Source: Branchiostoma floridae (Eukaryota; Chordata; Leptocardii; Amphioxiformes; Branchiostomatidae). From it: a stretch of 64,000 nt of DNA. Below the pieces are notes generated by a model. That model was not told the DNA's origin. It searched no databases and worked only from the letters and a program-made list of their open reading frames with translations. The translations under genes and the position numbers were made by a program. Every line of letters begins with the position of its first letter. The stretch's first letter is position 1. The stretch covers positions 2,237,645 through 2,301,644 of the forward strand of contig NC_049985.1 of the NCBI RefSeq assembly GCF_000003815.2, read 5' to 3'. Below, in pieces: positions 11,352 to 61,059 of the stretch.

Positions 11352-14300
11352 TCACAAACTGTGTTGCGCTGCGTGTCCCGCCGCCGGCTGCGTAACGCTG
11401 GCGACGCTGCACGTCTGGCCGTCCCCGCCCGACCACAGCAGGTAAAGCAGCACCAAGGACAGGGACAACAGCAGCACCACCAGCAACTTCTGTAGGCGCA
11501 GAGTCTGGGAGATGTTCTCTTCCAACCGCTGGGACGTACTGGAAATGGCACCAACCTGAAGATAACAGAATATAGTTAGACACATTTGATACCTCCAGAC
11601 TAGCTGTAGACATCATCTGTGGCATCAAATGGCTGAGAGGCTAGGCTAGAGGCTTCTGTATGCGCAGAGTCTGGAAGACGTTTTCTTGTAACCGCTGGGA
11701 CATACTGGAGATGGTACCAACCTGAAGATACCAGAATATGTTTAGACACATTTTATACCTTCCTACGGTATGGGAGGACCTAAGGTAAGGTAAAGTAAGA
11801 CTAGCTCTGTGCATTATTAGAGGCTAGGTTAGGGGCTCAGGGTCTGGGGGAGGGTCTCTTCTAACCACTGGGACGTACTACAAATGGTACCAACCTGGAG
11901 ATACCAGAATATGCTTAGATACATTTCACAGCTCTAGACCAACTCTAGCCATCACTAGAGGTTAGGCTAGGGGCACAAGATTGAGAGGTTCTCCTCCAAC
12001 TGCTGGGATGTACTGGAAGAATAGTGTAAAACAAACAAACAAGACAAATAGAAGTAAACTGAAAGGGATCTTACCGTCTGGGTGAGTTCTCGGACCTGTT
12101 TCTGCAGCCGTGCCATGTCTCCCTGCGGCGTGGCCTCCTGAAGCTCGGCCGCGTCGGGGGTCAGGTGGGCGCATCTAAGTCTGGGGATCGGGAGGGGAGC
12201 AAGGAACATATATAGTCCTGTAGCTGTTTAATCAGCAGAACTGTTGTCATGCTGAATCAACAGGCAGATATTTCCCTGTAGGTGCCTCCTCTCCTCTTTA
12301 TAAATCAGATGCTAAACATCAGTTAGTGATATAATAGGATATGATTTTGGAAATGGGCAGATGCTTCAGGTGATGCAGAGTGGGTTGAAGAAAGGATACT
12401 ACTTGAAACGTCTGACCATTTCCAAAATCATATCGATTCAGTTGCTTGAGTAACTGCTTTTTGGCATACCTCATTTCCTGACCTTCATTGACTTAACATT
12501 TCTTATACAAGTAGCCCCTATTACCATATATCATACATACATGCTTCAGGCCTCCCTTGCACTGTTATATCTCACTATATTTTTCTGTTACGTATTCATA
12601 AACATTTATCAAAAAGATGATACATGAAAATAAATAAATTCTACATGTTTTTCATTGCAGACCCTTGACTTGTGTTATGCAACTTGTCCCTAACCTGTGC
12701 TCCATGACGGAGCCCTTGGCTGCAGACTTCCAGAGCGCGGCCAGCTCTGCCGTGTTCTTCACCTCCTGCTGAACCTCCATGGACAGAACCAGGAACTTGT
12801 CTCGAGGTGTGGAGGCCTGATGACCTAAAGTGGTGTTCAGAATATAAATCAGATTTTATTTTATGTCACAGTTTTAAACCTTAAATCTGTACACAAAATA
12901 AAGCGCTTACCAATAAGCGCTTTTGATCAGTCTTCTGATTCTTATCAACTTGAAATGACCCAAAGCCTTTGTCACACATCCAGACTGGTATTGGGCTCTG
13001 CTGTAAGTGGCCTCTTTTGTTCCCAAGAAAATAATCCTGTTCAGAATCCAGTATCTTCACCTTGGGTCATTTCAACTTGATAAGGACCAGAGGACTGATC
13101 GAAAGCTTGTTGGTAAGTGATTTATTTTGTGTATGGATGTAAAACTTAAAATTGTGACGTGATGTTGACTACCATCGCAGATGAATTTACATTTGTTTAT
13201 GATAACAGATTTTATTTTGGTTCAGCTTATAACATGATACTCTCACGCACAAATTAAAGGAACTTGTCACGAGGCGTGGAGGCCTGTGACCTTGAGTGGT
13301 ATCAGAATAGAAGAAATCAGATTCTTTATAATTGATATAAAAGTACAAATGAAAGGCCACAAGTCGAGGAGGCTTGGTGACCTAAAATGGTGTTTAGAAT
13401 AGAAATCAGATTTTTTTCTTAGTTATTAGAGTAGTATCCCTGGTCAATCAGGATTTTATTCTTGATTTAACGTGCTGGCACATTACATAGGTGGCTTGGA
13501 GCCAGCTTGGTTTCAACAAAAAGGACCATACAATTCGTACAAATACTATACAGTAAATACAGAACATCCTTGTATACACTGCCAGATATAATGCAATGGG
13601 ATACCATCCCATCGTCAGAAATTGTGACTAACCAGGCTGTAGAAAGACATTGACGTCCACAGACACTCCTGGTGCGATCGGCCCCGAGCTGGGGCGCACT
13701 CGGTACTTCTCAGGCGATGTTGTCTTCACCTAACATTAGACACAGATGGAAATCTTTGTTCAATCTCAAGCTAATGTGGATGGACAAATTCAAAAATTGT
13801 CTTACTTTATTTCTAGAATTCCATTTGTCAAATTGACTGTAACAGTTACTATTCTTTTATGGGCAGTTAGGGTAAGATGGCATTTTATATAGGGTTAGGG
13901 TTACAGGAATGCCTTTAAACCTGCAGCCTCAAATTGGCATCATCAGAAAGAACTCTCGGGTCTGTACTTCTGAGCTGGAAACTGTTTTCAAAGTACTTGA
14001 TTAGAAATCCCTTTGATTCCTTATCTACACAGGACAAAAGCTACTGAAGCAACTAGATAACAGTAACAGTCAGACATTTAGCAGATGATAGCAGATAACG
14101 TTTAATCTAATATTGTTTAATCTGTGGACATTTCAGGTCCTGATTATCTTTTGTCAGTGACTTATTATCTGTATGCCTTACCTTGAAAGCCACAGTTCCG
14201 GCCGTTGTGTTAGTGAGAGTCAGAACCTGCTGCACCTCAGCACCCTCCGCATTCACAAACTCCAGCACATCCCCTGGACTGAAGGGGGGACAGCATGGTC

Positions 14301-17300
14301 ATCTTATTAAAATATTTGTTGAACTATCAGTATGTTGACCAACAAAATGTATGAACTGTAATTGTTCAAAATATTCCTTTTGGGTATTGCCACTGAACTA
14401 AACTGAAACATTTCCACCAAATACACACCCCTCTGACGTTATTGAACATTACATGTAAGTCATCAAAAACCATACTTCCAGCTCATACATTACAATATTT
14501 GCTTGAATCATTTGGCTTTCAAACGAACATTCTTTACAAGCCTTTGTGCAGAGTTGAAAACATGCTGCCATGTTTATTGTCATGCCATGACCAGTAAAGT
14601 GGGAAGAATCAAGATCTGGAGAGATGATATTTTCATGGTTTGTTGTTCAATAACATCAGAAGGGTGAATATTTGTGCAAATGTGTATGTTATTTAACAAT
14701 ATTACCACAATTGAACGTTATTTCAGGGAATTTTCAATTTTTATGTCATTGTTGTCGTTAGTATCTAAGAGGTTCAGAGAAAGGACACCTTACCATATCT
14801 TGAGGAGCTGTCCCTGATGTGCTGTTGCCTCTGCTGATCGCTTGTTTGAGGACAGCAGCTGCTGTACCTGCCTGTGTCTGTTAGGGGGCGTCAGTGGCTG
14901 CAGATAAGAATAAGAAACACAAATCATTATGTTCCAAAAACAATTTCATCAGGTCAGTAGAACATACTTTAGGATATTAAAGTTAAAGTTGTCCGTACAT
15001 CAGTAACAGATGCATAGGGGTGGTGCCCATCTCCATTTCTGTACTCTCTTGGAACTCACGACGTACCGAATGCAAGGCGAACACTCTAACCACTCGGCCT
15101 TTGCACCGGTACATAGGATATTGGAGGATATTGGAGTTTTCTTTTTCACAACCAGTATTAATGTTGCCTAACAGACATCTACCTCAGAGCTTCTAACTGG
15201 AATGCTGCTTCTCGATTGGTCAAGTTTCTCAGGTAGAACGCTAACGCTAGTTCACCTTTATCCGTGGGGTAACCTATATCCATTGTTTCTCAAAACAGCA
15301 CATCTAGGGATGTCAACTCGATGGATAGTTGTTTCAAATTGTAATATTTTCAAAATATAGCAGTTTGAAGTAACATTTTGTCGGCATGATAGCCCTAAAT
15401 ACCCTGCTTCAAAAAGCAACGGATATAGGTTACCCTGCGGATAAAGGTGAACTAGCATTACCCTAAACATAGGCTACTCAAGCAACTGCACAGATTTTGT
15501 AAACAGTCAGACATTTCAAGCAGCATCCACTATCTTTTTGTCTTCATTTCATTTACTTTTCAATTTATAGCTTTTTTTTATTGAACTCCTGTTGGTCTTT
15601 ATACTTTTCTCAGTCCCTGACAAAACACAGAGGATGCTCTGCAAAACATCTAACCATCTAAAACCATCCAGTTGCTTGGGTATCTGTTATCTTGAGAGAA
15701 ATTTCTCCTTACCCCTTTGTCAGATTTTGCGTCCCCTCCCGCTGCCCCAGAGTCACTGTGTCTTCTCCGCACGCTGTCCTTTGTGTCGGCTGAGAACGTC
15801 ACCTGTACTCAGGCAAAACATCATTCATAGTTAACATTATGTCATACCTGGGCCTCAACATTTGATACGGGTGTTCCGGACCAGGTGGTAAATATAGAAT
15901 ACAACATGGTGCAGTTCACATCACCCTCATTCCCAGCCCTCCCGCGGGTAGGATCGCTGAACGGCCAAAAGCATTATGTCACACCTGTCCAAGAAAACAC
16001 TTTACAATCCAAAATGCGCTGGAAATTGAGAAAATTTGGTGTCCTTGATAAAGAATTGTAACTGTCGATAATTCAAATATCAGATTTGGAGGTTGGAATT
16101 GCTGATGTTATAATTCTTGATCAAGGACACCAAATTTCCTCATCTTCTGGCGCATTGGTAGCATGTAAGCCGATTCAAATCCAAGAAACCTGAACCATTA
16201 CGGCATGAAAAATCATAGCCAGGATTACTTTTAAGTTGAAAGTATGATGTGCCAAGTATACTGACCTTTCTAGGGCTGGGGTTGTTGGAGACCTCCCCGT
16301 TGGCCCGTACCATGTTGGGGGACTCCGGAGGGGTGCCCCTGGGTGTGGAGGGGTTGGGCAGGTCGTCGTCAGGCAGGGGTGGGTACGTGTACTGGAATGT
16401 GTCCTGAAGAAGGGAGAGAAAAACACAATGTCAAGCTCAAATAATATTTCTACTTCTGTATTTATATTGTAAATCAGCATTACTTCCTTTTATAGATGTA
16501 GCAGACCACGCATTTGACAGCTACTAGTTATAATCTCAGTGGCAGCAGCAACAGATTTGGTATGGGGGGGGGGGGTATATTGCTGACCAAATTTCAGCAT
16601 ATGGGGTGCCAGAGACATGACAATCCTAACATTTTGAAATCTTGACCATCTGAAATGCCATTTCCTGCATTTTGAGGAGCAAACTTTGCTTGTAGACTAG
16701 GTTTAATAAAATTTTTATAAGTGAAAAAAGGGTTTCAGCTGACTTTTTTTTTGTGTGTGTGGGGGGGGGGGCCTCGTGCAACTTTTTCCAGAAAAAAAAC
16801 AACAAACTGGTGTGTCCTGAGCACCAGAACTCACCGTGCCTCCCATGCGGGTAGCCAGCTGGTCTGGAGCGATGTACTGCTGAACCTCGCTCCGATTCAC
16901 GAACTTGATCTTCTTGACCGAGTCAGGTGGCAGCCACGTTTTGATGATCTTCCAGGCAGCTGATGAGATGTGATTTTATTTATTTAAGTCACGCTTATAC
17001 ATTGGGGGATGGAGCAAAAGACAAAACACTCATAAGAAATACCCTCATAGATACAAATATGAAACATTGAATACGTGAAGCACTGTATGGTTTGTACTTT
17101 GACATTCGACTTATGCTTTAATTTATGTGTATTTTGTGGATGTTGAAAGACTTCAAGTTCCATATCCTGCTATCTTTTGCTATAAGCTGAAAACACAAGG
17201 CATTAATGTACTGCATACATTGTACATGTACATGCCTTAAGCAGTTTGAGTACCCAAAGAAGGTACCCAAGTATGGGAACTGCATATACAATTGAGCCAC

Positions 17301-20300
17301 TTACTGTTGAGAATCCATGGCATCTCATAGACCAGTAGGTAGGCTGGAGGAAAGAAATCATAGTGATGGTCAAAGATCTTTTTAGATATCCTTGACAAGT
17401 TAGAACTGTTAAGTAGAACATAATCTATCCTTGTCATGGCTAGTGAAAGATTAGACCTTCACTGAGCTAAGACTCGATCAAGATCAATTTCCGTTGTCTC
17501 AGTCAAAGAGGACTAAAGCAGAAGTTCACACATTAACTCTAAGCATGGCTCAGTGGTCATTGATTTTTCTATGTTACAGCACTTCATAGGAGGCCAAAGT
17601 GGTTTCACCTTCCGGCGAGTAATCCCTCACAGTTCATTTTCACTGAAAGTCTACCACATGATATATTGAATCTGATATCAATGGAGGGAAACTATAGCTG
17701 CTACCCAACAACTCTTGTGGCAGTGTAGGGTCTAATGCTTAGGGTGTCTGGCAGAGCTGTCTCCAGAGATTTTTCCTGTCCCTCTCATTGTTTGGGAGAC
17801 CATGATGTTAATTTCATTGTAGGAGCTGTGGTTTTAAGCCTACAAAAATACATTTTTATCATTCTCATGTCATTTCTGACCATCGCAACAAGCAAATGTC
17901 CGTCGTTGGATAGATGGACAATTTTTGGAGACACCCCTGGGTTTGGGGTCAATCCACTGACAAGTTCTGATGCTGTTTCCACAGGAAATGTATCTTTCAA
18001 AATTGCCTCACTTTACAAGTCAAAAAGTCAAAGTTCATGAATTAACATGAGGGACAGCTCTATATAATGTAGGGGTGAAAATAAGGAACCGGTGCAATGG
18101 CCGAGAGGTTAGAGTGTTCGCCTTGCATTCAATAGGCCGTGAGTTCAATCCCAGGCCGAGTCAAAGCAGTATGTACCATTTTTAAAGTCTTTGGTATGAC
18201 TCAGCCGAGGATCCACCTCACGGCCTACCGAAAGAAAGGCGAACACTCTACCCACTCGGCCATTGCACCGGTTCCTCACTTTCACCCATACATTATATAG
18301 AGCTGTCCCTCATGTTAAATGGAGGTCCCGTGTTTGAGGAGAGCAACAGCTTGAGATGGTTGAAGAGCCCATCACATTTATCAAAAAGAGAAGGGATCCT
18401 TCCTGGTGTGAGTGGATCAAACCTTACAGTCTGGTCTTACTTATCTGGGTTACTCTTGGACGCACTGTACTGATAATGCAAAACAAAGAAACAAACAGAC
18501 AAACAAAAATACAACTCACCAAGCATGTTGGGGAAGTAGTTCTTGAAACAGTTGATTAAGAATCTAATGAAGTCCATATCCTGGAAAAGAGAAGAAGAGC
18601 AGCACTTTGAAATTTCATACAGTAGAAGTCTGGAATGAAAATTTATAATTAATGAATGAATGAATGAAGATTTTATTGCACATTTTTGCCACACCGGGCA
18701 CAACAAGACATGTTGAAAAGATACAGTTCACAGATACAAAATGAGACAGTGGGAGCCGCTACCAGCCTTGTTTCTGCCTGGCTGCAACTTGTCATGCATA
18801 GTTGCATCCCAAATAAATAAAATGAAATGAAATGAGACTACAGTAGAAGCCGCTTAATTGCACGGTCTATTTGCCAGTGAATTTCGTGCAATTATCTGAC
18901 TGGTGCAATAATACGAAGTTATCTAGCTGGACCACACTGGTTTTGGATTTGGAGAGTCCGTGCAGTTAACAGAAGTGTGCGTTAATCCGTTGTGCAATTA
19001 ACTGGCTTCTACTGTATTGTTATTTATAATATCCATACTTTCAGCACCAAGGACAGAGTCTAGGTTTTCCTATTTTATGGTACCATTGATCATTTCTTAT
19101 AGATATGCCTCAAAGAGCACATTATTAAAACATTAAAAACCATGGTGGGATAAACTGGTGCTGCATTGTGGTTCACTAACTCCACTTAGGTGAAAATTAG
19201 AACCTATCTTCAATTACGGCCATCCTTCAGAAAGGACATTAAAAGGAGGTCACGTGTTTGAGGAGACCCACACTTTGAGCAAGTTAAAGATCCCGCCACA
19301 CTTATAAAAAATAGTAGGGTTCTTCTCGGTGTGAGTGGTTCAAATCCTTACTATTTAATGGCAGCAACTGGAGTAATTACTGTCTTATTGATGTCACTAG
19401 CTGCTGTGTTGTACAGGCTGCCATTACAGATCCTTGCTATTTAGCTGTGCAAGCTCCTTGCAATTCAGCCCCTGGCTGCAAAGAGAGAGTAGTCTATCCA
19501 GCAAATAACAATAACATAACAAGAACAATAACCTACCATACGTCGATGTAGGTTAGACATCCAGGTAATAAGATACACCAAAAAGGAATAACCTACCATG
19601 TTGCCCAGGCCCGTTTCTAACATGTCGAACACGATGGTCATCTGTTTCCCCTGGTGCCTTGTGCTGAGCCTCTCCAGCCAGAAGACCAGGAAGCGACACA
19701 GCTCCTGGTACTTGGACGAGTCCTTCTTGTGTAGCTTCGCGATGAATATCACTGCGGAAGACAAAAACAAGCGGAGGTTTGTTTGTTTGTTTATTTGTAC
19801 AAGGAAAGACATAAAACATAATACAAAAGCAGTAACGCTAGTTCACCTTTATCCACGAGTAACCTATGTCCGTTGTTTTTAAAGAGTGGGGTATAGTAGG
19901 GATATCAAGACTGTGGTTTCAAAATATTGCAGTTTGAAATCACTGTTCATCTATTCTATAACTAGATACCCTGTTTTTGTAAAAGCAACAGATATAGATT
20001 ACCCGGCTGATAAAGGTAAACTAGCATTATATAAAAACAGGTGCAAGCAGAGGGAAAAGCGTATGTAGCTTAAACTAAGCCCTCCTGCCCTATCCTAGGC
20101 TAAATCAATTACAATTGATAAATGATTCAAGTAATATACATAGTGTGGTAGCCGTAAATGCTAAATAAAAAGTTATCTGAAAACCAGTTTAACTCAATGA
20201 AGAGCTTATATTCGATGGAAGACAGATGCTATGAACAGGATCATTGTACCAGGAAAATTCCGCTGGCTCTTTTCGATGAATACATTGAACGGTGGACTAT

Positions 20301-23300: not shown

Positions 23301-26300
23301 TGAATATGTGGATATCTTTCCAAAATTTCAAGTTCTGTCTACATTTTCATGCGCCGATTTCTGTCCGCCAAAAGTGACAGAATGGGCAAAATTCTTATCT
23401 GTCCTGAGCAGCAAAATTCCGCCAAATGACGGAATGATAGATGCTGGCTAGAACATTGCTGCATTTTGCATGTAAATTTTTCAAATTGCACGTAAAATTT
23501 TTGCCAACTTGCAATTTTGCATGTAGCAAAAAAAAACTATTTCGATCCCTGGATGTAATAGCCTTAATGTATTTAGAATAATGTTCTTGGTTGTCATTCT
23601 GTCGATGTCAAAACCGCAATTGCATTGATATTATCTTTGTCTCTGTCAGCAGGGCTAGCCCTTTGTAATAGCCACAGTCTAGTCAGGCAGCCGTCTGTGT
23701 GTGTTGAACATTAGCTTTAAAGTCCTTCCTGCATCAAATGGTGCATAGGGAGGCACTCATCTCTGGATATATGAGAATTCTTGTACACAATCAAATTAAA
23801 CTTACTTGCTGACGTTTCGATGTCTGTCAGACAGATAGATCAGAGAAGACAACAGACGGATCCGTTGGATTAAAGAAGCAGTCTGAATAAGGAAGTCCAC
23901 CCCAGTGATGAATCGGGACGAGGGGGGATACAAGCTGAGCCACGTTTGGGATAGTGCTCTTCTCGCCGCAAAAGCGCCACCTACATCGGCTACATATAGC
24001 GGCGAGAAGCAGAACTCCAGTCAGAAGCTCTGAGGAAGATGTCTGACAGACATCGAAACGTCAGCAAGTAAGTTTAATTTGGTTGTGTACAAGAATTCTC
24101 ATATATCCTATATTCTACCAACCTGATGAAACTATTTTCGGAAGGCACTCATCTCTGTTCCAACAGCCCATGGGCCATGCAGCATTGTGCAATCACTACG
24201 GCTAGTCATTTCCCAAATGCTGAGTGCTAAGCAGACAAAGCAGCATGTACCATTTCTAAAGTCTATGATATGACTTTACTGGAAACTCGTGACCTGCCGA
24301 ATGCCAGGCAAACACTCTAACCATTTGTCCATTGCGCCAGTGCATGCTGAACTCACTCACTCACTATCCATGGTTAGATTATACTGCTGCTGGGTTCTAA
24401 ACAAATAAATAAACTCACAGATGGGGTGCCCCTCCTTGTCCTCGTTGTGTGCAAACAAGGCTCCCTTCTCAAACATGGACACAGGAAGGCTGGACTCACT
24501 GATGTCTGAAATATGAAGTTCAGTTCAGAAATAACAAAGTTGGCATCAACCATTATGATGAACAGTTCATACACAGTTTGGGGCAAAATAGATAATGCCA
24601 GTTTACCGGTTTCTGTAAAACAATCATCCGTCGTGAACGATGGGAGAACCATGGTAAAGCAATCTATATCTATTGTTTTTAAAGGGTATTTAGGGATATC
24701 AAGTTGACGGACGGTGCACCTGGTTTAAAAGCAATGGATGTAGCTATAGGTTACGTCACAGATAAAGGTGAACTAGCATTATTCATATTTATATGATGTT
24801 GTCACACTATCCTTGCACATGTATTAGAAAGGTGTTCCTAATGATTAGTTATTGACTTTTAGCAATCAATCAATAAACACTCAAAGTCTGGCTGGAACAA
24901 TAGTAATATTTCAGTTTGATGTGTGTTGAAATCACATCAAGGAACTATTATTGGAAAGTTAACAACCTGTGCAGCTTCATACTTATATAGACCATGCCCA
25001 GATGCTTGTACAGCCACAGCTGTTACAAAGTCAAAAAGCTTTGACTGTAACTGTCGATCAACAGAACGTTATCAAATCTAAGGATTGCCAGAAACTAAAT
25101 CATATTTTCACTTGAAAATTGACTCCATCACATTGGCCAGGGCTTGGGAATGGGCAAATAATGGCTGGCCTCTAAAGATTGAGCAATGATCGGGAAAACA
25201 CCAGTCAATTATTACTGTAAATGTCCTTTAAAGCTCGCAGACTCGTCAGTAAGATTGAATTTGCTGCTGTGTGATGGGGGCTTTGAGAGAAAAACAAAAC
25301 ACAAGCCCCAGCTGTTGCACAGGGACAAGCTTTGACCATAATTGTTGATCACCAGACAGTTATCAAATTCAAGAATCGCCAGAGACTCAAGTGTATTTTT
25401 GGAAGGTGCTCTGGGACCAGCAAGTGTCAGCCAATCTCTGAAAATAGTGCTCAAGGATCAAGAGAACACAGGGCATCACTACAAGAAAAAATGACATTTA
25501 GAGCTCACAAACTTCTTAGCTGATTGATTTCCCTGCCACATGACAGGTGCTTTAGAGAGAAACAAAACATAAGTCACCATAAACTCCAAACAAAAAAGAA
25601 GACATTATTGGACTAATTATACTGTAATATCCAGCACAAAAATTGGACTCACCCAAATTTTCGACTGGACACCAACAGTCTTTGTCAAGGAATGAACAAT
25701 CCACTGCTGTTGTGATGTCACATTATGCAGATAGAACACATGACTCAGTAAGCAGTGGACCATAGGTTGCAGGAGGTCTATGGCGCCCACCGCGCAGTGG
25801 ATTGTTCAATCCTTGACAAAAACTGGTGGTGTTTAGTCAAAAATTTGTGTAAGTCCAATTTTGGTGTTGAATATTACAGTGTACCTAGTCCACTACTGAC
25901 TTCTACAAACACAGATGAACTTTCAAGTTGAAAAAATTGAGTAACGATGAAGAGGAAACCGGGCAAATCAAACTATTAAACTTCTTTTTTTTTACTTATT
26001 CTGTCACTGAATCCATGTTATTCTTTACCAAAGATAAAAAGGAAAAAAATATTTGTACAGGCATTATAAAATCTTTGTTTCTAGATTCTTGCATAAGATA
26101 ACCGAAGCCTAAATAATATATCACAGCCGAAAGTGACATTTTGAGCTCGCAGACTCATTGGCTGATCAATTTTTCTGCTGTGTGGCTTTAGAGAAAGACC
26201 AAAACACAAGTCACCATAAGATCCAAACAAACAAACAAACAAACCATAAACTCCAAACTCCTTCCTCCACTTGAGTGCGCTGACCAGCATGTCGTAGGCT

Positions 26301-34882: not shown

Positions 34883-35044
34883 GTTGGTCATGCGATGTTG
34901 TCGGTCAAAGGTCACCCGGAAGTCGGGTCGTCAGTGGCGGGAAACACAAGATGTCAGCTGATGACTAGGTCGTGTGAGGATCTTGCTCCTTATTTTCCTA
35001 CTTAATAGCGCAATAGTGCGACATAACCAGCTCATTTTTTCACC
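34883..35044. promoter_or_regulatory. Shared bidirectional promoter of MOSPD2 and FANCB
   Basis: Only 162 bp separate the start codons of divergent MOSPD2 (ATG 34882) and FANCB (ATG 35045). Visible motifs are an ETS site, CCGGAAGT at 34916-34923; an E2F-like site, GCGGGAAA at 34937-34944; and, over the MOSPD2 start, AACATGGCGG, which matches YY1, followed by a second ETS core, CGGAAGT (reverse strand). There is no TATA box. This combination is typical of housekeeping bidirectional promoters, and E2F input would suit a DNA-repair gene. Factor binding is inferred. Confidence 0.75.
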
Positions 35045-38000
35045 ATGGCGTCTCCAAGACACCATCTAGTTTCCTACAAAGGCTTTGTTGTAGAATTTTG
35101 CGATGAAGTTGAAAATACGACACTGGAAGGAACTGTGATCCAGGCCAGGGTTTTCAAGATGGACAGGACCACAGGCAAGTTTGTACAAGTATGTGTGGTT
35201 GACAGTCCTGAAGTTGGACAGCTTCACATCATAACAGCTAACTGTGTGTGCGAGGAGAGCACCGGATCCATCCTTCCATGCGTTCTTTTCCGTAACTGCA
35301 AAGGAGACTCTGGCTTTCCTTGTGTGTTCCAAGCAGCTTTTCTGACAATGGATGGGGACGATGCAAAACTCGTGACCGGTCCAGGAATGTCAGCATCACA
35401 CCGCATGTGTCACAGCAACGTCCTAAAGACCTTCCAGCTCCTACCGGGACCTCGGATTGCGTATCGTTACCATGGAGACCTATGCGTCGCCTGCGACAAA
35501 CAGAACACAGGAACATTCCAACAGCTGAAGATCGCTACGTCGACCTTCGACCCGCTATGGTGGGGAAAGCTGGGAAGGACACTCGTTGCCATGGGAACGG
35601 AGGCATGCTCAGCATCACCTGATCACCAGATGGAAACCGAAGAGGAGATGGTCACCGACCTTGACCTCATCTGGGGTCACAAGTGGATGTATGTTGCCAT
35701 GGAAACCAAAGATGAAGAGTGGAAGAAAAGGGACGGTAGCGTCTTCATTCCTCATCCGTATGCATGTGTGGCTAGGGCGATATGCCTGTTAGAATACAGA
35801 GTGATTAAACAGACAATAGATGGGGATAATCCAGAGCAGGAGGATGCTGATGTCCATCAATCACGTGTGCTGTTAGCGACCAATCAGGGGCAGCTGGTGG
35901 AGCTGGAGGATGGGGAGGTGAGGAGGATTTGTGAGCTGCCGTTTCAGGACCCGTCTGACGTGCGTGTGGCGTATGTCAGCGGAGGGGAGACAGTCGTTCT
36001 TGTGACGTCACCCACAGGAGGGGTGTGTGCGGTGTGGGGCAGCAGCTTCAAGGTACGGCTCAGATTTTTGCCGTAACATAAAGAAAAAAAGTATAGAAAA
36101 AGATCTGTCTGATCAGATTTAGTTCTCTGTGTATATCTGAGAGTAGATGTCAGCTCTGATACTTGCTCTATGATAACATCAGTTGGAGCAAATAAAATCT
36201 ACTTAAATGGTACCAAGGCTAATCTAAAGTTCAGCCCTAAAAATGACTAGGTATATAGGACAGTAAATTAGAACAGTAAATGTACTTTGGATGGATTAGG
36301 TGTATGATAAGATAAACAGCCTCTGGAAGTACTTTAAACTTAATGATCCAGAATTTATCTGATGTGTGATAGTTGTTCTTTTGCTCCAGCCCGCAGGCCA
36401 CTGGCCATCAGCCCACATGGCCCTGACCGACTATTTCCTGTCCCGTGGGACTCAGCAGGTGCTACTGCTATCTGGGAGTGGGGGAGTCTTTGATGGTTTC
36501 CTTCTCACTGATCTAATGGGCTACAACATTACCGATCAGGTGAACTAGCCGGTGTCTACACAGCTCAACTTTATTTTTGTGATCCCAGTTCCCTTTGATT
36601 AAAGAAATCCTGTAAAGATTGATTTTTCCATTATCATGTCTGATGTTTAATTTCTAGTCCAGTGTTTGAGTGCGGTTTATTCAGATTCTTATATTGCTAT
36701 ATCTTTACCCTTCAATTTTGTTCATCAAGTTGACAGAATGGTCTTACAATATAGTTAAGTAACATTTTTTCAGTCAGAGTGATGATACACAGCAAAATTC
36801 TATCAAATGACGGAATGACATTAGCTATCTAGAATTCTGATGTGTTGTTTGATAAGATATACAATTGTTTAAGTGTTTGTTGTAACTTTTTCCCTGGTAC
36901 CACTAACAGCAGGAGGAAGCTGAGGAGGAGACAGATGTGTCTACTAGTACAGACAGGAGTGTACCCATGCAGTCAGCTGTGCAGGCCTTACAAGCCAGGC
37001 TATATGTAAGGCTACTCCCTATTATGACAGGATATGAAATAAGTCAAACATTGCGACTGTGTATTAAAAAATGTCAATTCGGACCTCATACGGACTTCAC
37101 ATACATTGTTATAGCACCTTTTCCAAGGATTTTAACCTCCTTGCCTTAAATCTTTATGAATACTTAAATCTGGAATACTTTTTTAATGTGTACCTTTTTA
37201 TGTGTGTTAATCACAGGAGAGCCAGGCATCCCTGGAGGAGCTGAGGTCCCTGTCAGCTCAGAAGGACAGAGTGATCCAGCAGACCTGCACAGCTCTGAGA
37301 GCCATGGTGCTACAGAGTGGCCACGTTATGGGGCAGGCCGCTCTACCAGAGGATGTAAGCACTCCCTCCTACATGTATATCCTACCTCGCTATACTTTTG
37401 TTCTGTATGGTATAGACTCACTCACTTAATCACTCTCACTCACTCGCTGACTCACTAAGTTCCTCATGCTTGCTCACTCGCTCACTCATTCATTCACTTA
37501 GAAGTTACTCATACTTACACTCAGACACTAACTCTCTTACTCACCAACTCTCTCAGTAACTCACTTACTCACTCTTACTCTCACACTCACTCACTCTCAG
37601 TAACTCTCTCACTCACTCTCTTACTCACCCACTCTCTCAGTAACTCACACTCACTCTCAGTAACTCTCTCACTCACTCTCTTACTCACCCACTCTCTCAG
37701 TAACTCACACTCTCTCAGTAACTCTCTCACTCACTCTCTTACTCACCCACTCTCTCAGTAACTCACTCACTCATACTCTCACACCCACTCACTCTCTTAC
37801 TCTCACACTTACTCTCACTCTCTCAGTAACTCACTGACTCACTCTCTTCCTCTCACTCTCACTTACAGGTGCCATTGTCATGCTGGATAACACTGAAGGT
37901 TTAGGAGGTGAAATCTTCCATTATGCTGTATGTCCTTCTCTTGCAAGGTTGTCCCCATAGACATCATTCATAGCTTGGGAAAATGACAGCTCAGAGACGA

Positions 38001-40570
38001 CAGTATTCTACCAGTTTCGACTTTAATTTGTCTTTCTCAAGAAATCAAGGTTGTCCCCATAGGTTTCGTCCTTCCTTGTTGCTCCATTGACTAATTACTT
38101 TCCTCTTATTTATTGTGTCCCACTTGCAGCCCTCACTGGTGTGCCTGTACAATGGAAAAGGTTTTCCCCCCAGTCCTGACTTGATGCCCCCCTCCCCACC
38201 TATGTCGGACCCCATCACCGTTGTACGAGTCTGGCAGAGGCTGGTTCTGAACCAGTGGGTGGTCGGGCTGGAGATCAGCAACCAGTCAGACAGGTGGGGA
38301 TCTTAACTTGAAAGTTCATCTGTGTTGGTAGAACTCATTATTGGACTTTAAGTCAAACTATATTGGACTCCAATAGGCAGGGATCTTATGTTCCAATGGG
38401 TCCTTCCTGGTGTGAGTAGTTCAAAACTTACAGACCTATGGCCGCACCTGGGTCAATAACTGTCACCTGAGTTAGTGTCAAATGGCAGCTGCTTTAAGAC
38501 TCTTAAGATTTAGCCCTGCCTATATTAAGCTCCTCGAAATTCAGCCTCTGGCTGCGAGGAGAGAGTAGACAGCCCACCCAATAAGAACAAGCAATGCCCC
38601 TTCATTCTGACACCCCTATGTTAGGGTTAGGGTTAGGGGTAGGGGTAGGGGTAGGGGTAGGGGTAGGGGTAGGGGGTGTGAGAACATCAAGGATTTGGAA
38701 CATATGAGTGTAACTAAATAGGGATCTTGTGGTATCAGCATAGGCTATGCAAAATCTATTTAATGGAAGACATCTGCCCATGCATTGATTTTGACCTGTT
38801 TCTGAGATATTTTCTTTCAAGTGACATGCAACAAGAAATCACAGCTGCATTGACATCCATCTAACTTACCTTAAATCAAACAGTTTTCTCTACTGTTTGA
38901 AATAAACTTTCCCACATACAAATGTATTTTCCTTTTTTCCGCAGAACTTTGCAGGACGTACGCCTTGCCCTTGTTAGACACGAGGGTGCTGAAGCTGGTG
39001 CCATGAAGAGTTCAAGATGGAACAATGATAGCACATCTTCATGTAGAGTTGTTTCAACAATCCCTCCCGCAGTAAAACTAGGCTCAGAGACAAGTCATCA
39101 CTTCCAATCCAAGAAACTAAAACTGGACAAAAGTGTGCAACAAGATGTAACAAAACAGAATACTACACTAGTCTGTGTGTCCCCCATACCCAAGTTTGGT
39201 GCCCGCCCATCCTTACAATGTTCTTTACTCCTATCATGGAGAGAAAAAGAAGGGAGAGGTAAAGACAGTGAAGTGGAGTCCAGCTTTAGAGATTTCTGTC
39301 TGGATGTTGGGCATGTGAAGTTGTCCATTGATGACATTACCAACAGACATCTGACTGTGTTTGCGGGGGATGGCAGCAAGACTGGTAAGATCTCGCCTTT
39401 TTTTTTACCTCTTCAGATTCTGTAATCTTTTTCTGTAATTCAGTTTGTCTTTTGATGTTCTTCAGGACCCATCCTCCATCAATACAGAAATTTGCTGCAG
39501 TGGGAAAAATTCACCCCATTGTCAACAAAAAAATCCTAACTGCAAGACATGAAATTGATGAAAGTGTATATTATAAGCTTGAAATAGACATTTTCAAAAA
39601 TGTGAATTCACACAACATAGTCTCCCAAAACAATTAGTATGACTAGAGACAGCCCTTGTGTACACATAACTATTCTGTCTGTAATGCCTGTGAAATTTAC
39701 AGAGTAGCATAGAGATGACTAGGTTGTATAAACTCTTTCAAAAACATTTTTTTCACAGCTGACTTACAGAAGACAGACCTGCTGGCCCTCGAAGCTGTGC
39801 AGTCAGAAACAAGGTTAAAGGTGAGATGTAGCCATGGCAACCTCAGGCAGCTGCCTCAGATGTTGCAGAGCAAACTGGGATTCCAGGCTATCCCAGGCGC
39901 CCCTGGACTGTTCTGTGAGCGGCAGGGACCGCTGCAGTATGTGAGAGTCACCTGTACTGTCATCAGCAGAGCAGAGGCTGAGCTATCTGTTTGTACAAGG
40001 TGGGAGGATTTTGTAATTATGATAGCATTCATCTAGGTGTATTATTGCAGCCAGTAGGTTCCCAATCTGACTCTGAGTGTTGAGGCTGTTAAAATACAGT
40101 GGAAGGAGAAGGATGGATTCTGCCTACCAACACTGTTCCCTAGACACGGTGGATAACAACCCACTGCTTTTATAGCCTCAAAAGACTTTCGGACAACCTT
40201 ATCACTTGAGTCAGATATACATGTAAATGTCGAATTTTGTTCATCATTATCAGTACATATCCTATAGATGCACGTAGAGGAGCGATTTTGGTTCATTCAT
40301 TGCTTGCCTATGTAACTGCTCAGTTTAAAAGACACTGTGTGAATCACTTTTTTTTCTCTCTCCAGAGACCTGCCCCAGCTGTCTCTTCTACTCCACTCCC
40401 TGTACAGCCTCCTTCCCCGAGGAACAAAAGTCCTCCCTGATCTTCAAGACTCCAACATTAAGGAGGAGGTGGAAAAGTATGTGAAATCTGTGGACACTGA
40501 GCAGCCACACATGGGCAGCAAGCTCAGAACTTTACTACAGTGGGAGGGAGTGGAGAAGGAACAAGAGTGA
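35045..40570 (+). CDS. FANCB: FANCB, Fanconi anaemia core-complex subunit B (complete, 8 exons)
   Basis: Exons: 35045-36052, 36390-36539, 36910-37005, 37217-37354, 38130-38293, 38945-39384, 39759-39999, 40366-40570. All junctions are GT-AG and in phase, giving about 813 residues (human 859). The clearest matches to human FANCB are CELPFQDPSDV followed by VSGGETVVLV and GGVCAVWGSSFK across the exon 1 end, then ALTDYFLSRGTQQVLLL and FLLTDLMGYNITD in exon 2. Exons 3-4 encode a short acidic stretch and a coiled coil (SLEELRSLSAQKDRVIQQT). In vertebrates FANCB joins FANCL and FAAP100 as the catalytic module that monoubiquitinates FANCD2-FANCI in the nucleus. The start has a good Kozak context (CACCATGG). 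A 30-base phase-0 mini-exon near 37869 is possible but was left out. Confidence 0.92.
37415..37868 (+). repeat. CTCA-type minisatellite in FANCB intron 4
   Basis: About 450 bases built from CTCACT with a higher-order unit (CTCTCAGTAACTCTCTCACT, CACTCTCTTACTCACCCACT) repeated at least four times. It ends just before an AG and is almost purely pyrimidine and A on the plus strand. Confidence 0.85.
38385..38580 (+). repeat. Interspersed repeat, also at 18318-18470 and 19235-19490
   Basis: Shared motifs are CTTCCTGGTGTGAGT with GTTCAAAAC and ACAG, TAATTACTGTC or similar, and TTCAGCCTCTGGCTGCGAGG with AGAGTAG. The three copies lie in FANCB intron 5, MOSPD2 intron 6 and MOSPD2 intron 5. The type is unknown, probably a SINE or DNA-element derivative. 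Confidence 0.6.
38620..38676 (+). repeat. Interstitial telomere-like repeat
   Basis: GTTAGGGTTAGGG changes into a run of GGGGTA units. It lies in FANCB intron 5 on the sense strand, so it could form a G-quadruplex in the pre-mRNA. Its context (ACACCCCTATG before, GTGTGAGAACATC after) suggests it is the core of a dispersed repeat. Confidence 0.8.
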
Positions 40571-41145
40571 TGCTTTCATACAGATGACAGGGCCTACAAG
40601 ACGTGTTGCCATCTGGCTGAATGTTTAGATTCATAGAAGTTAAAAGTTGATTTGCCGATGAGTCTGTCAGCTTGAAATGATACTTTTGTCAGTTATATTG
40701 TCAAAGTTCTCTCAATCACCACACAATTTGACAGATCAACTGATGTGCAGAGACCCCTGAGCCCAGCACAATGTGATGGGGTAAGTATTTTTGTGAAAAA
40801 TATGCTTGAGTCTCCTTGTTAATATTGGGGACAGGTACAAATGTACACCTTAAGCCCCTTAACAGGTGTCATCATAATGTAAAAATCTGTGTGGAACTGT
40901 GTCATAAGATGGTTTACTACTTGAATTTTATTGTTTCAATGTTTGTGGCATATACATGTGTAACATAGAAATTTACATTGTCATTTCCCAGAGTGTAACA
41001 TTACTGTCTAAATGTCTTCACTGACAGGTTATATTGGCAAAATATGTACAGGTGTGTTATGTTGTAGACAGTTACTTGGGTTTGGCAAAAAAACTTTTCT
41101 ACATTCAGTGTGCTAGAAAAATAGTACAACTCTACAATAAATATA
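40571..41145 (+). other. Probable FANCB 3' untranslated region
   Basis: Non-coding sequence after the FANCB stop, containing a canonical AATAAA at 41136-41141 followed by a T-rich stretch. The transcript end is inferred to fall at about 41155-41165. Confidence 0.5.
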
Positions 41146-42535
41146 TTTACTCTCAACAGAAGTCTAGCTTCCTACATGCATCCTCATTGGATAACTTAAG
41201 CATACAGATTTGAGGATCCTTAACTGAGTGCTCTTAATTCCACTCATTAGTGCTTATATTCACAAAAATATAGCATCTACATGTACTACATCATGCTTTG
41301 CATTATACAGTGGCATGGAAATCATGTCGACTTTTGATCAAAATATGCAAGAAAGCCACATTGTTGAAAAGTTTGAAAATTCAACTCCTATTGCAAAATA
41401 TATTGTATTTATGTTTGTGCACTATTTGTACATATCATTCATTTACATATTTGTGCCCATGATAAATGTAAATTTACTATATATTTATCATGTGTAACAA
41501 GACCTTTTCACTTCAATGTTTAGTTGTTACCTCCATGAAAAACGAAGGTATTTTCAAGTGTCTGTTTATGTTTCCAGATATTTGTGGTCAGCATAACTCA
41601 ACAATCTCTGGATGGATTCTGATGGTATTTGGCATGTGGGTAGGTAGGTTTGTTTGTGTGTGCATTTGTGTTTCCAGATATTTGTGGTCAGCATAACTTA
41701 AGAACCCCTGAATGGATTCTGATGCTATTTGGTATGCCGGTAGGTCTTATTTTTGTTTGCACTCTCCACTTTTGTCCCTCTTTATACTTCCACCATTGCT
41801 TTTCAGTTGAACTAGAAACACCTCAATATCAGTTCACCTCAATGAACATACATGTACAGTTTGTCCACCAGTACATCAACATTCAGCATGTAGCCAAATG
41901 TGTCGTCAGTCCACGTATGGCAGTGTTCTTGTCTCACCCCTAACCTGCTGTGTTCAGATGCTGTACATTCCGCATATGGTCAAATTGTCAAAGATCAGCA
42001 GGTAGTCAGTTGCACGCATCTTGTCGCAAAGGAAGATGACTTAAGGACCCATAGACACCTTGAAGGACATTATGACGACTATGTATCAACAGTCAGTAGT
42101 AGACATGTAGAGCTGTCTGGTCACAAAAGACTCCTAGGACTCATAGATACCTTGGAAAATCACCAGTACCATGCATATGGGGAAGAAATTCTCGCATGCA
42201 TGCATGGAAAAGACCTTAACCACCAAAAGATGTTGTTTCTCGTGAAAGTCCTGGCTTTGGGATGTCTCAGATTGTTTTTTTTCAAATCTAAGAGCTCTAG
42301 CATTGAAACTCCTGAGAGTACGATGCCATTGCTAAAGTCCAGGGTGTTCTGAAGCAGATGAGCGCCTCATACAAGGAATTTGTGCTTTTGGAATGTTCCC
42401 CTTAAAGAGTCTTCCAAGTTCTTCAAGCATGATTACAGATGTGAGAAATCAGTCCTTTAGAACCAGAACTTTCTGTTTTGTGAGGCACATTGAAGAATCA
42501 AGTTCGTTTTAAGATGGGAAAACAGATTCCTTCAT
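41146..42535. other. No gene seen; short dispersed repeats
   Basis: Two direct copies of TTTCCAGATATTTGTGGTCA followed by GCATAACT and GGATTCTGATG lie at about 41572 and 41673. Similar wording occurs at 32140-32250 and, inverted, at 62345-62440. A 150-codon open frame at 41900-42352 has no family signature and is probably chance. Confidence 0.45.
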
Positions 42536-42539
42536 AATC

Positions 42540-42915
42540 ATATGCAGATGTGTCGTAGCCCTGTTAACTTTTGCTGTCAATATCTTGCTGTGGCTAGATA
42601 TTGAGACCTGGAACGTCTCCAAACATGTTTGTCTTTGTGAGGTTTTTGAGAGCCCAGCAAAATGAGACTATGCTCCTCAGAAACAGATGAGTCTGCCCAA
42701 CGTGTGGTAGCCCTGTTTGCTGCCTCTGCCCGTGTCCTTGAATGTCTTCAAACTTGTCTTTATCAACCTTAAGAGCCCAGCAAGAGGAGTCTATGTCTTC
42801 AGACGCACATGAGGCACCTCCTTAAATAGTCTTTTTCAAGAGATCACAGTCTTTCAGAAGCATATGAGCCTGCCCAGCGTGTGGTAGCCCTGTTTGCTGT
42901 CTGTGTCCGTGTCGC
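42540..42915 (-). repeat. Duplicated 3' end of the fibrinogen-like gene's last exon
   Basis: The coding end and stop region at about 42860-42912 (plus sense GCCTGCCCAGCGTGTGGTAG, CCCTGTTTGCTG) recurs at about 42690-42745 with GTCTGCCCAACGTGTGGTAG. A third, weaker copy lies at about 42545-42590 (TGTCGTAGCCCTGTTAAC). The extra copies are downstream of the true stop codon at 42854. Confidence 0.7.
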
Positions 42916-45900
42916 CGAACCTGAGCTGTGTGACAGGCAGGTGTCTCTTGTGCATGAGCCAGCCGGAGTCCTCCTGCCAGCTGGCCAGCCCAGAGTCGCA
43001 CTTACAAGCTCGGCCTCCGCCACAGGTGCCTGCAAACAATGACAGTTGTACGTTTAAAGCAAACGCAGATTTGTGATCTATTTGGGGAAACCGAATTTTG
43101 CCCAATTTTTCAGACAAACTTTCATGTCGCATTGACAGTGGACCTTAAAAACATTCAATTGATTTGATTCACTCACAAGGGACAGGCTGTCAATAATTTG
43201 GTCATTCTTACTAAGGAAGGTGCTACCAAGAGTTCAGCAAGAGTTAAGATCGAAAGTTTAGACTTATTAAGTTTTATTGCATAAAGATAAATTGGTTTAT
43301 ACACATTCATACACATCATTTCTGTTGTGGAAGGCATCTTCTGAAGTAAAGATAACATTTGCCGTAGATGATAAGTATGTATACGGATTCGTTGTCAAAA
43401 AAGACACCAACTACAATATATTATAAAGCTCTATTTCTGTACACAAAGCAGAGTGCTCGCCAATAATCATTCGCATTTTCGATTTTTACAATATCAATGG
43501 CCATCAAATATGAACTTTCATTCAACATTACCTGCTTCTCCACACGCGCAGTTGTTTGTCCCGGGTTTCCCCCCTCCCCAGTAGTCCTTTCTCCGGCCGT
43601 CAGCTGACAACCACCAGGCGAACCCCGTACTGCCTCTGTGCAGGACCGAGCTCAGGCATTCATACTACAAAGATGAAATATTGCAGGGAATTACTTTGCA
43701 TCACACAAAGGTTCAGTTTTGCTAGGGTGTTCTAATGTTATTAATCTCAAATGGTGAAATGTTCCAAACCAAATGCTATTACCTTAGTAGATTAAAGGCA
43801 GTACAAAGAAGAAAATACGGCTTGAAAGTGGGGTAATATTCAAAAGAGTCAGTTTGATTCTGGAAAAACTGATCTCAGTTAATGTCTTTTACAATATTAC
43901 TCGTATCACACCTTCGCCTGGGTACCATCCTAACCCTTGGCTGGGTTCCGCTTTCCGCTTTTGGGGCATGGTCGGGCCCGGGTCCATTCTAACTCGGAGA
44001 TAAAATAACCCGGGATCTAATCGTAAGCACATCGACAGGTACCCCAAAGTAATCCGGCAGTCCAACGGGACAAATTTGTGGCTTCGGGGTGGGGCTACAG
44101 TCCCAACGACCACAGGGGCAAATGTGACCGTAATATTAAGCAAGCAAAAGGGGAGAGCCAACATACAGTAACTACGGACGACGGTACCCAGACTAATCAA
44201 ACCTTGCTGTTATGTAAACATTTGTGTAATCTCTTAAGCTGGAGACCAAAGGTCCATGTACGATAGAAACAGAAAACACGCCGCCACCGGTACCTTGATG
44301 AACTGCATACATCTCTTGGACCTCCTGATGACGGCCCGGATCTGCTCCAGGGACGTCCAGTAGGTGATGTTGCGGAAGTACGACCCGGGCTCCCCGTAAC
44401 CCTCCACCACCGTGCGGGACTCGCTGTCGTGCCCGAAAGACGACGCGACTAAAAACAATCAATACATAATGTTCACATAACGTTACATGTACGAGGTTAC
44501 ACCTGCGTTTGGTTCAAGTCTTCAGATAACAGTTTCCCTTGCTGGTCTTAAATACTAATATGATTAACATCGTTCGGGCCTCGTTGTCGTGCCCGAAAGA
44601 CGAAGCAACTAAAAACAATCAATACATAATGTTCACATAACGTTACATGTACGAGGTTACACCTGCGTTTGGTTCAAGTCTTCAGATAACAGTTTTCCTT
44701 GCTGGTCTTAAATATGTTTAACATAGTGCGGGCATCGCTGTCGTGCCCGAACGACGACGCAACTGAAAACAAGCAATACATGATATTCACATTCATGTAC
44801 GAGATTACAGATGAGTTTGGTTCAAGTCTTCAGATGACAGGTTTTTATTTTACTCGCAGTTCGTCGACACATTTAGCTAAAATGCCCGAATGTTCAGGAC
44901 ACCGGAAACATTCAATGCACAATAAACCATCATCTCATAGTTCTGAGCACAGATGTGGTCTCATATGAGCTCAATTGGCCTAGAACGGAATGAAATCGTT
45001 AGGATAATAAAATACAACGTCCGTCCCTACCTGCATCTCCGACGCGTTCACACTGCACGGGAGTCGGCGGCACGCCCTGTCCCGGGCCGTCAGGGTCTAT
45101 GGAGTAAATCTCTCCCGAACGGAACTCTTTCCCCAACGTCTCGGAAACTTCTGTGCAGCTGGCAGGAAGAACTGGAAGGGAGTAAATGATTTGATACATC
45201 TTTGGCAGGAATAATTTTCACAATAAATAATTTTACTTTCTTCTGATATCAAATTTCAATTTTGTTAATGTTGAATTTTAATTTTTGTAATGTCGAACGC
45301 CATTTTACTCAAATTTTAAAGTTTGAAATGCCGAATTTCAAATGATGGGCAGTGCAGTTTAAAGCATTACTTCACATGAAATGTAATAATGATCAAAGAT
45401 GTCCACATAAGCACATATTTGCTAATGTTATGTTATCTTGTTCAGCAAAGGGCGTGCCAGTCAATGTGAATAGAACTAAATCTGAATCTGCAAGTGCGTG
45501 GCTTCATAAAACTCAGAGATAGCAAGATTTAAATGAACACTACTGAAAAATGTTTTTGTCTAATACAATTACCGGTATTGACAAGCTTGTTGGAGAAATG
45601 CATACGAATGATGAGGACAGCTTTATTGCATGTCAAGAGCTGAATATTAGCCAAAGGTGATCATAAAATGTAGGAAGGTTGGTCCGTCAAAAATGGATGC
45701 ATGAGAGTCCCCACCATGACATGACTGACAGCCTCCCGATGACGTGTTCCACCCCGGTAAGTCCCTGCCCTGCGCCGATGACGCCGGTTCCCCGAGAATT
45801 CCCGACAGCTTCTGCTGCAGAATCCGCTGCGACCGCTCCATCTCCGAGTTCCTCAGCCTGAGCCCCTCCACCTCGTCCAGCAGCTCGTCCTGGTCGTGAA

Positions 45901-47167
45901 GCTGTCCGTAGAGTTGTTGAAGTTCCTCCCTCAGCTCGCTGGCTGACTTCCCGTCCAGGGCCAACAGGCGCTTCTCTCTGTTTGGGGTTGTGACGCCGGA
46001 ATCGTCTTCGCTGTCGTCTTGGTCCTGTACGTCTCTGGGCCCTATGATGCGCGGTGTGGTCGGGCCATGGTCGGGCTTGGAGGGTTTCTTACCCTTCCGC
46101 AGGGTTTCCATTTCCTGAAAAATATAAAAGTGATCGCATATGAAGTCATTGAACAGGTGAGCTAATCTTTCATTGGTCGTGACAGAAAAAAAATAGACGT
46201 TATGTAACGTATTTATAGATTATCTATCGGGCGAGGTTTTTCTTTCCTTCCTGAGGGTTTCGATTTCCTGTAAAAGAGTAAAAATCATCTCGGACCTGTT
46301 GATCTCAAATTAACTCAATGTTTTGAAATGAATAAATAAATAGATAATTAAGTTGTCCACGGCGTAATGTCCCGTCCTTAGGATTGCTACACTTTCCAGT
46401 AGCGTGAATGCCAGGTGAGCGACAACAGGCGGAAATCGAACTCACGACCATTGGTCCAGAGGCAGGGTCTCTAACCACTGGGCTATGCTCCCAACGTGGT
46501 AGCATGACATTTCGGCGTAAGGGCAGTTTGGCCTCTAGCCGAACAGGACGATTCGGCACTGGATCCAGGAAGACTCGGGTTATAGTTAGGATTAGGGTTG
46601 AGTTAAGGCGTCCTCTTGACAGTCCTAGGGCTGATGCCGCATCGTCCTGATCGAGTAGAGGCCGACCTGTCCACGACCCGAAAGGTCGGACAATCACGAG
46701 ACGCTTATTCCTATTTTCCCCTAACTATCGCAGAGTGGAATTTGTCATCACCAAGCACAGCAAGGGCATCTTCGCTAGATAGTTTTAAAGAACGCTTGAA
46801 GATAGATGGGCAAAAGTTGCGTCTGATAGGTCGTTCAGTGCAAAACAACCAGAAGCTGGCGTGTTATTCAAAAGGTCGGTGCTAGATGACAAAACAAAGA
46901 CGACAGAAAAAGGCCACGTTTATTCCTATCAACTTCTGCTTGGAGAGTAGGTTATAACAGCTATATTGATATAGATACGCGCATATGTACCTTTAGAAGC
47001 GCCTGGTTCTGCTGCTGAAGCCGCTTGACCTCGTCCCACAGCATGTTGGTGGGGCGGCTCTCCAGCGCCAGCACCCGCTGCTCCATGACGTGATGCGTGC
47101 TCTGCAGGAACTCGTTCTGCCGCCGCAGCTGCTGAACCATCTCCTGAACACCCTGCTGGTCCAAGAC
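42854..47167 (-). CDS. Coiled-coil protein with C-terminal CNTNAP-type fibrinogen-like domain, 5' end not found
   Basis: Exons in transcript order: 46991-47167, 45715-46114, 45031-45171, 44294-44448, 43532-43664, 42854-43029. Phases join throughout. The first two exons encode heptad-rich coiled coils (VQQLRRQNEFLQ, VKRLQQQNQALLK, ELREELQQLYGQL) around an acidic linker. The last four encode a domain like the fibrinogen-like region of contactin-associated proteins and neurexin IV: GEIYSIDPDGPGQG, EPGSYFRNITYW, CMQFIK, DYWGGGKPGTNNCACGEAG, WQEDSGWLMHKRHLPV, LRFGDTD and YHTLGRLIC. In CNTNAPs this module sits mid-protein among laminin-G domains; here it ends the chain after coiled coils, so this is probably an oligomeric secreted or type II membrane lectin-like protein. 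I found no signal or anchor exon between 47168 and 49039. Several exon edges are tandemly copied. Confidence 0.8.
44430..44850 (-). repeat. Three tandem copies of an acceptor and exon start in the fibrinogen-like gene
   Basis: The true exon start (acceptor at 44448; protein VASSFGHDSESRTV) is repeated upstream with acceptors at about 44611 and 44764. The copies read VASSFGHDNEARTM and VASSFGHDSDARTM. Each copy keeps the TTTTTAG or TTTTCAG acceptor and about 100 bases of the same intron (ACGTTACATGTACGAGG, GGTTCAAGTCTTCAGAT). The unit is about 155-160 bp. Confidence 0.88.
46380..46505 (-). mobile_element. tRNA-like SINE head
   Basis: The minus strand reads GAGCATAGCCCAGTGGTTAG (A-box like) and TGGTCGTGAGTTCGATTTCC (B-box like), the arrangement of a tRNA-derived Pol III promoter. 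It is too degraded to fold as a tRNA. A similar fragment is at 48365-48440. Confidence 0.55.
46690..46810 (+). mobile_element. LINE reverse-transcriptase C-terminal fragment
   Basis: The plus strand reads DAYSYFPLTIAEWN, then TARASSLDSFKERLKID. This resembles the conserved end of CR1/Jockey-type LINE ORF2 (FFPRTI..WN, LDSFK.RL). It is short and isolated, in an intron of the fibrinogen-like gene. Confidence 0.6.
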
Positions 47168-47705
47168 CTGCAGAAACAGACAAGGTTCACTTTACTCCTG
47201 AACCATCTCCCTAACACCTGCGGAAACAGACAAGGTTCCCTTTACTCCTGTCCTGAACCATCTCCTGAACACCTGCAGAAACAGACAAGCTTCACTTTAC
47301 TCCTGAACCATCTCCTGAACACCCTGCTGATCCAACACCTGTGGAAACAGACAGGGTTCACATTACTCCTGAACCGTCTCCTGAACACCCTGCTGGTCTA
47401 AAACCTGCGGAAACAGACAAGCTTCACTTTACTCCTGAACCATCTCCTGAACACCTGCTGAAACAGACAAGCTTCACTTTACTACTACTGAACCATCTCC
47501 TGAACACCTGCAGAAACAGACAAGCTTCACTTTACTCCTGAACCATCTCCTGAACACCCTGCTGGTCCAACACCTGCAGCGAAAGACAGGTTTCACTTTA
47601 CTCTCAAGGGCAGACACGACTATTTCTCTTGAACCATCTCCTGTACACCCTGTCTGTCTTACATACACCTGCAACAACAGGCAAGGTTCATTTTACTCTG
47701 AATCA
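47118..47705 (-). repeat. Nine-copy array of an acceptor plus exon start (coiled-coil exon)
   Basis: The start of the exon at 47167 is followed on its upstream side by eight more copies. In transcript sense each unit reads GTCTGTTTCTGCAG (acceptor), GTGTTGGACCAGCAGG, TGTTCAGGAGATGGTTCAGG, then AGTAAAGTGAA. Units come in two lengths, about 66 bp and about 50 bp; the short ones lack the GTTGGACCAGCAGG part. Each unit has an AG acceptor and a possible GA|GTAAAG donor, so each could act as a mini-exon. In-frame reading stops just after VQE. Confidence 0.88.
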
Positions 47706-51028: not shown

Positions 51029-51039
51029 TGTCACTAAGC

Positions 51040-61057: not shown

Positions 61058-61059
61058 TG

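Follow-up and report, generated by a model that had tools for sequence, protein, structure and literature searches.

Tandem Duplications of Exon Borders in a Lancelet Genome: Probable Mirages and Their Frequency at Splice Borders

In a 64,000-nucleotide stretch of the Branchiostoma floridae genome (hereafter the window), the edges of several exons recur, together with their splice sites, in short local duplications. This raises the questions of whether exon borders attract such duplications and whether the copied splice sites are retained because they are of use. The original prediction held that no described process acts at exon borders; however, mirages, which are minisatellite-like tandem duplications of lancelet exon–intron borders, are already on record, and two papers (PMC3087553, PMC3902484) document them in Adh3, troponin C (TnC), the globins BflGb6 and BflGb9, and PGBD5. 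The Adh3 (2002) and troponin C work is cited here through these two papers, which report that splicing is undisturbed, as judged by RT-PCR, and that the Adh3 locus is somatically unstable. The globin paper (PMC3087553) considers that mirages may be general in cephalochordates and suggests a link to intron gain, while the available portion of a multi-lancelet genome paper (PMC4284660) makes no mention of minisatellites.

Exon Borders Duplicated in the Window

Gene models with splice sites set by eye and then checked by script give 60 splice borders in the window. MOSPD2, on the minus strand, is complete, with 16 in-frame exons in the script check of the hand-placed model and with Pfam domains CRAL_TRIO (3e-38) and Motile_Sperm (8e-25). 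Exons 1 and 2 of a GCPII-like gene match glutamate carboxypeptidase 2 in PDB (E 6e-14), and a plus-strand gene at 35045–40571 has nine exons. A further gene, here called the coiled-coil gene and modeled with six in-frame exons, gave no match of note in Pfam or PDB; its earlier name, fibrinogen-like, reflects a resemblance that neither database supports. A search with whole frames from the window against PDB, in which stops were read as glycine, returned nothing of use for the gene models. Long, mutually similar open frames lie on the minus strand at 49043–51073, 55995–58055, 59678–61258, and 63565–63999, and are presumably of RING/B-box/NHL type.

Local duplication covers 6 of the 60 splice borders, namely the donor at 4066 and the acceptors at 11555, 12824, 44448, 46114, and 47167. 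These six duplications, together with one at a coding end, are as follows:

3769–4123, minus strand: GCPII-like exon 2 donor; two copies 186 bp apart, 83% identical; true exon end at 4066, decoy donor after 3889
11487–12018, minus strand: acceptor 11555 of MOSPD2 exon 16 (last); two site-reaching decoy copies and one partial copy; first spacing 166 bp
12791–13417, minus strand: acceptor 12824 of MOSPD2 exon 14; two shorter copies in the intron, 467 and 557 bp upstream
42607–42913, minus strand: coding end of the last exon of the coiled-coil gene; copies 177 bp apart, 88% identical; no splice border
44408–44844, minus strand: acceptor 44448 of coiled-coil gene exon Ed; two copies, 160-bp unit, 87% identical
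46085–46289, minus strand: acceptor 46114 of coiled-coil gene exon Eb; one 51-bp copy 154 bp upstream
47129–47706, minus strand: acceptor 47167 of coiled-coil gene exon Ea; eight site-reaching upstream copies, AG in all; units near 50 and 66 bp

The copies of all six borders sit in the intron that adjoins the border copied. Unit sizes are ∼50–186 bp in five of the six arrays, the exception being MOSPD2 exon 14, whose copies lie 467–557 bp away and are not contiguous tandem repeats; the dispersed-looking stretch that separates them from the border has a match elsewhere in the sampled genome sequence. Five of the six arrays gave no match elsewhere in the ∼332 kb searched. Six exon borders had originally been placed in short tandem duplications, and this description needs revision at two of them: five do span a splice junction, whereas the copies at 42540–42915 carry the stop codon of the last exon of the coiled-coil gene and represent its coding end, and those of exon 14 are not contiguous. 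The duplication at acceptor 46114 was absent from that list.

Several other repeats lie near exons. A 39-bp duplication (253–327; 1.9 copies, 80%) falls in a putative coding exon with a GTAAG donor at its end and could be a further border duplication in a gene cut off by the window edge. A CTCACT-type repeat (37416–37866) ends 3 bp from the exon 5 acceptor of the plus-strand gene and was scored as nontouching in the automated event count described below. Local repeat copies at 25219–26234 end 11 bp before the MOSPD2 exon 3 donor, and the end of that exon seems, by eye, to be repeated ∼665 bp into the intron.

Duplicated Borders Outside the Window

Because the window was selected for showing the trait, a chaperonin set, picked solely by membership of Pfam family PF00118, forms the fairer sample; it comprises twelve loci with nine multiexon genes. 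Four of these loci carry duplicated borders:

L029: exon-end (donor) array, 67-bp unit, 14 units
L025: acceptor array (68 bp) plus a distinct donor copy
L026: donor copy, GT lost
L030: acceptor array with few exon bases

A second copy of the L029 gene, L031 (C19:12474001–12483000), lies on the same chromosome with its main blocks 85–92% identical, and could represent either a paralogue or an unmerged, leftover haplotype. It contains 1 unit where L029 contains 14, which suggests that arrays expand or collapse. A chaperonin gene on C4 with long introns has four arrays away from borders.

Two candidates in these loci were rejected as mirages. The pair at 6474/6845 in L025, having matches elsewhere, was classed as a dispersed element. 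The L028 pair is snoRNA-like by Rfam, below the gathering score; the snoRNA-like copies in this locus (3546–3641, 4055–4149, 1648–1741, and 5311–5430, minus strand) include three that resemble SNORD12 at 32–39 bits (gathering score 43) and one SNORD22 at 64.7 bits (gathering score 50).

Further examples came from fluorescent-protein genes. A lancelet fluorescent protein query gave 67 exon-sized matches in the assembly (513,431,437 bases, 431 contigs), mostly clustered on C4 and C17, the best by identity being 85–88% identical; these matches identify the genome as that of a lancelet. The Pfam GFP model found no match in the same genome, which we treat as a failure of sensitivity, since the protein query did match. 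Cases in which one stretch was matched twice in the match list revealed two duplicated borders:

L035: fluorescent-protein gene, 98-bp perfect duplication across the donor
L036: fluorescent-protein gene, acceptor copy, 88.6% identical

Only duplications with long exon parts appear in such a list, so a count from it is not unbiased. By eye, each 98-bp unit of L035 (1–284) opens with a brief segment containing an in-frame stop codon, so that the gene copy is possibly defective or an assembly artifact.

Relation to Known Systems

Judged by sequence features, the duplications described here are new members of the mirage phenomenon. As in the published cases, the genome is that of a cephalochordate, the units straddle the exon–intron border, and both acceptors and donors are affected. 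Many copies, though not all, keep AG or GT (16/16 in the window, with losses in L026 and L030), and copy number may likewise vary, given 14 units in L029 and 1 in L031 (allele or paralogue). The units are head-to-tail and minisatellite-sized, at ∼50–186 bp in five of the six window arrays slightly above the published 10–160 bp. The differences are that the genes are new (MOSPD2, the GCPII-like gene, the coiled-coil gene, chaperonins, and fluorescent proteins) and that the MOSPD2 exon 14 copies are set apart by other sequence. The arrays also resemble those of intron gain by tandem genomic duplication (AGGT model) in being intragenic tandem copies that carry splice signals; however, the authentic exon here is unchanged and no new intron is shown. 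Introners are intron-making mobile elements, and they too consist of intron sequence units bearing splice sites, but the units studied here are local and gene-specific, as the ∼332-kb search of the window arrays indicates.

Frequency of Duplications at Borders

How often a duplication meets a border depends on what is counted. Per base, 10–15% of the sequence considered is in local duplications, so that 6.0–8.9 of the 60 window borders would be covered by chance, compared with the 6 observed. Coverage in the window is 9–11% within 25 bp either side of borders, 9–13% in introns within 800 bp, and 2.3% in exon interiors. In the eleven exon-bearing chaperonin loci, coverage rises away from borders, from 2.8% at 0–25 bp to 9.0% at 400–800 bp. 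Twenty arbitrary 10-kb stretches (one of them all N) have on average 12.6% of their readable bases duplicated, very unevenly; ab initio coding scores proved too noisy to locate border arrays in them. From these figures, the window is not unusual in its duplication content, and counting by bases shows no concentration at borders.

The outcome differs when each array is counted as one event, because long arrays in long introns dominate base counts. For this test, one unit of each array was placed at random, and the automated count was relied on over a hand-curated one, which gave stronger p values. In the window, 6 of 13 events are at borders compared with 2.3 expected (p 0.015); a second, hand-curated event count gave 6 of 13 with 2.15 expected (p 0.011). 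In the twelve chaperonin loci, the automated count is 4 of 14 with 1.6 expected (p 0.063). Together, 10 of 27 events are at borders where 3.9 are expected, a ∼2.6-fold excess with p 0.0024, which ranges from 0.0016 to 0.072 across nine threshold settings. Two exons in these models had been added by eye (L025 3675–3788, which adjoins an array, and L028 3862–3956). A count without them, whose event lists are slightly shorter owing to a longer minimum alignment, places 9 of 25 events at borders in the joint set with 3.8 expected (p 0.007) and 3 of 12 in the chaperonin loci (p 0.18). Restricting the count to arrays whose copies share at least 90% identity leaves 4 border events out of 8 against 0.9 expected; omitting the hand-added exons changes this to 3 out of 6 against 0.8.

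The strict hand-curated list, from which the dispersed element, the snoRNA pair, and a 35-bp pair are excluded, has 11 of 22 events at borders with 3.3 expected; restoring the three gives 11 of 25 with 3.6 expected (p 0.0002). L031 was left out of every event list as a second copy of L029, and L030 is border-touching by hand and nontouching by script, because fewer than 8 of its exon bases align. The nine chaperonin genes alone give p 0.05–0.18 and do not settle the border excess. The recurrence at exon borders in the original prediction is thus real and above random placement per event, to a degree that depends on thresholds, on a hand-added exon, and on the use of a window selected because it shows the trait. 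Compared with random positions in the window and the chaperonin loci, junction overlap shows a modest excess per event and none per base.

Splice Sites of the Copies

That many copies keep AG or GT was borne out: all 16 copies in the window that reach the site do so, at 0.80–0.94 identity to the true edge. Outside the window, GT is present in 13 of 13 aligned copies in L029 and AG in 6 of 6 copies of the L025 acceptor array, while GT is lost in the L026 copy and AG is absent from 2 of 3 aligned L030 copies; for L025, L026, and L030 the status of the site was taken directly from the aligned rows. The further claim that several copies keep the reading frame found no counterpart. We tested 16 decoys (15 acceptors and one donor) by reading through to or from the true exon, and met a stop in 15 and a frame shift in one, so that an open in-frame extension arises from none of the 16 sites. 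Use of a decoy would therefore break the predicted protein in every case.

The idea that copies are retained as spare or decoy splice sites, raised when the arrays were first noticed, is accordingly highly improbable in our estimate. The high retention in the window, in L029, and in the L025 acceptor array is what it would lead one to expect. However, an identity of ∼0.9 by itself predicts that two bases are kept in ∼0.8 of copies; the 16/16 of the window lies slightly above this (0.81^16 = 0.03 under an assumption of independence that copies of one array do not satisfy). Also against it stand the losses in L026 and L030 and the stop or frame shift at each decoy. The additional copies have the appearance of debris that introns tolerate, not of a reserve of splice sites.

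Origin of the Border Arrays

We consider it likely that the arrays are lancelet mirages produced by ordinary minisatellite turnover and tolerated wherever an intact exon survives in one of the copies. A segment of ∼40–190 bp would first be doubled through a common kind of repeat-generating mistake, such as slippage, end-joining, or unequal exchange, and copy number would then move up or down by exchange between copies, as the comparison of 14 units with 1 suggests. A unit that straddles a border would be harmless because one copy keeps the exon, the others falling in the intron, where the cell would ignore them. Duplications wholly inside exons would be removed by selection, and those wholly in introns would fade or be deleted in the absence of a conserved anchor copy, whereas such an anchor may keep border arrays recognizable for longer. 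Selection and anchoring could thus yield a moderate excess at borders with no machinery that recognizes splice sites. In agreement with this, the exon share of the unit, measured by hand in 11 arrays (roughly for L030), does not depart from uniformity (KS p 0.93); in this small set of arrays, nothing indicates that the splice site is where units are cut. Donors are duplicated as well, in the GCPII-like gene, L029, L025, L026, and L035; this and the variable place of the splice site within the unit (n = 11) argue against the proposal that minisatellites nucleate at polypyrimidine–AG sequences. A point against turnover with anchoring is that the 10 of 27 border events, and the 4 of 8 among copies at least 90% identical, are not fully explained by it, since anchoring should act mainly on old copies; these numbers are small.

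Under a directed origin, spliced, transcribed junctions might themselves cause breaks or slippage, through R-loops, RNA-templated repair, or the chromatin edge of the exon nucleosome, and minisatellite birth in lancelets might then be biased to splice junctions genome-wide, ∼2- to 4-fold per event and most strongly in the youngest arrays. Both the mechanism and this generalization appear unlikely to us, to the same degree. The ∼2.6-fold excess of events, its presence in the arrays of at least 90% identity, and the strict hand-curated count all point toward them, but there is no per-base peak at borders, unit phase varies, donors and acceptors are both duplicated, and the C4 chaperonin gene has its four arrays away from borders in long introns. 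The statistics are also sensitive: the joint p value spans 0.0016 to 0.072 over the nine settings and is 0.007 (9/25) without the hand-added exons, half of the data come from the trait-chosen window, and the chaperonin loci alone give 0.063 (4/14) or 0.18 (3/12). Less probable again is that the arrays are footprints of new introns, born by tandem duplication of an AG/GT-bearing segment (Rogers model, applied to lancelet globins in PMC3087553). That paper presents this as a model for mirages, in which local duplication with splice signals supplies the raw material; in the window, however, the copies are found in the intron adjoining whichever of the six borders they repeat. Errors of assembly in a highly heterozygous genome are the explanation we regard as least credible. 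One globin array is reported as aberrantly assembled (PMC3087553), and the L035 duplication is 100% identical. Against this, the window copies differ by ∼6–20% from the true edge, which already contradicts assembly error for the diverged copies, the 541-bp MOSPD2 array gave one match when searched against the genome, and additional sequence data are reported to bear out the PGBD5 arrays (PMC3902484).

Implications

In the published work considered here, mirages are reported gene by gene. In the present sample, 11 of ∼210 splice borders are duplicated by hand count, the trait-chosen window included, which points to mirages at a few percent of all borders, those of conserved housekeeping genes among them. 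This small measurement of border frequency appears to be new, none having been found in the open-licence literature searched. Such copies are relevant to gene prediction, to assembly, and to the idea that new introns grow from them. The per-base result calls for caution in reading borders as hotspots. If borders were true hotspots, splicing or transcription would be linked to local genome instability, and if birth were biased to junctions, exon borders would be mutational hotspots that offer lancelet genes a continuing raw material for shifted or new introns.
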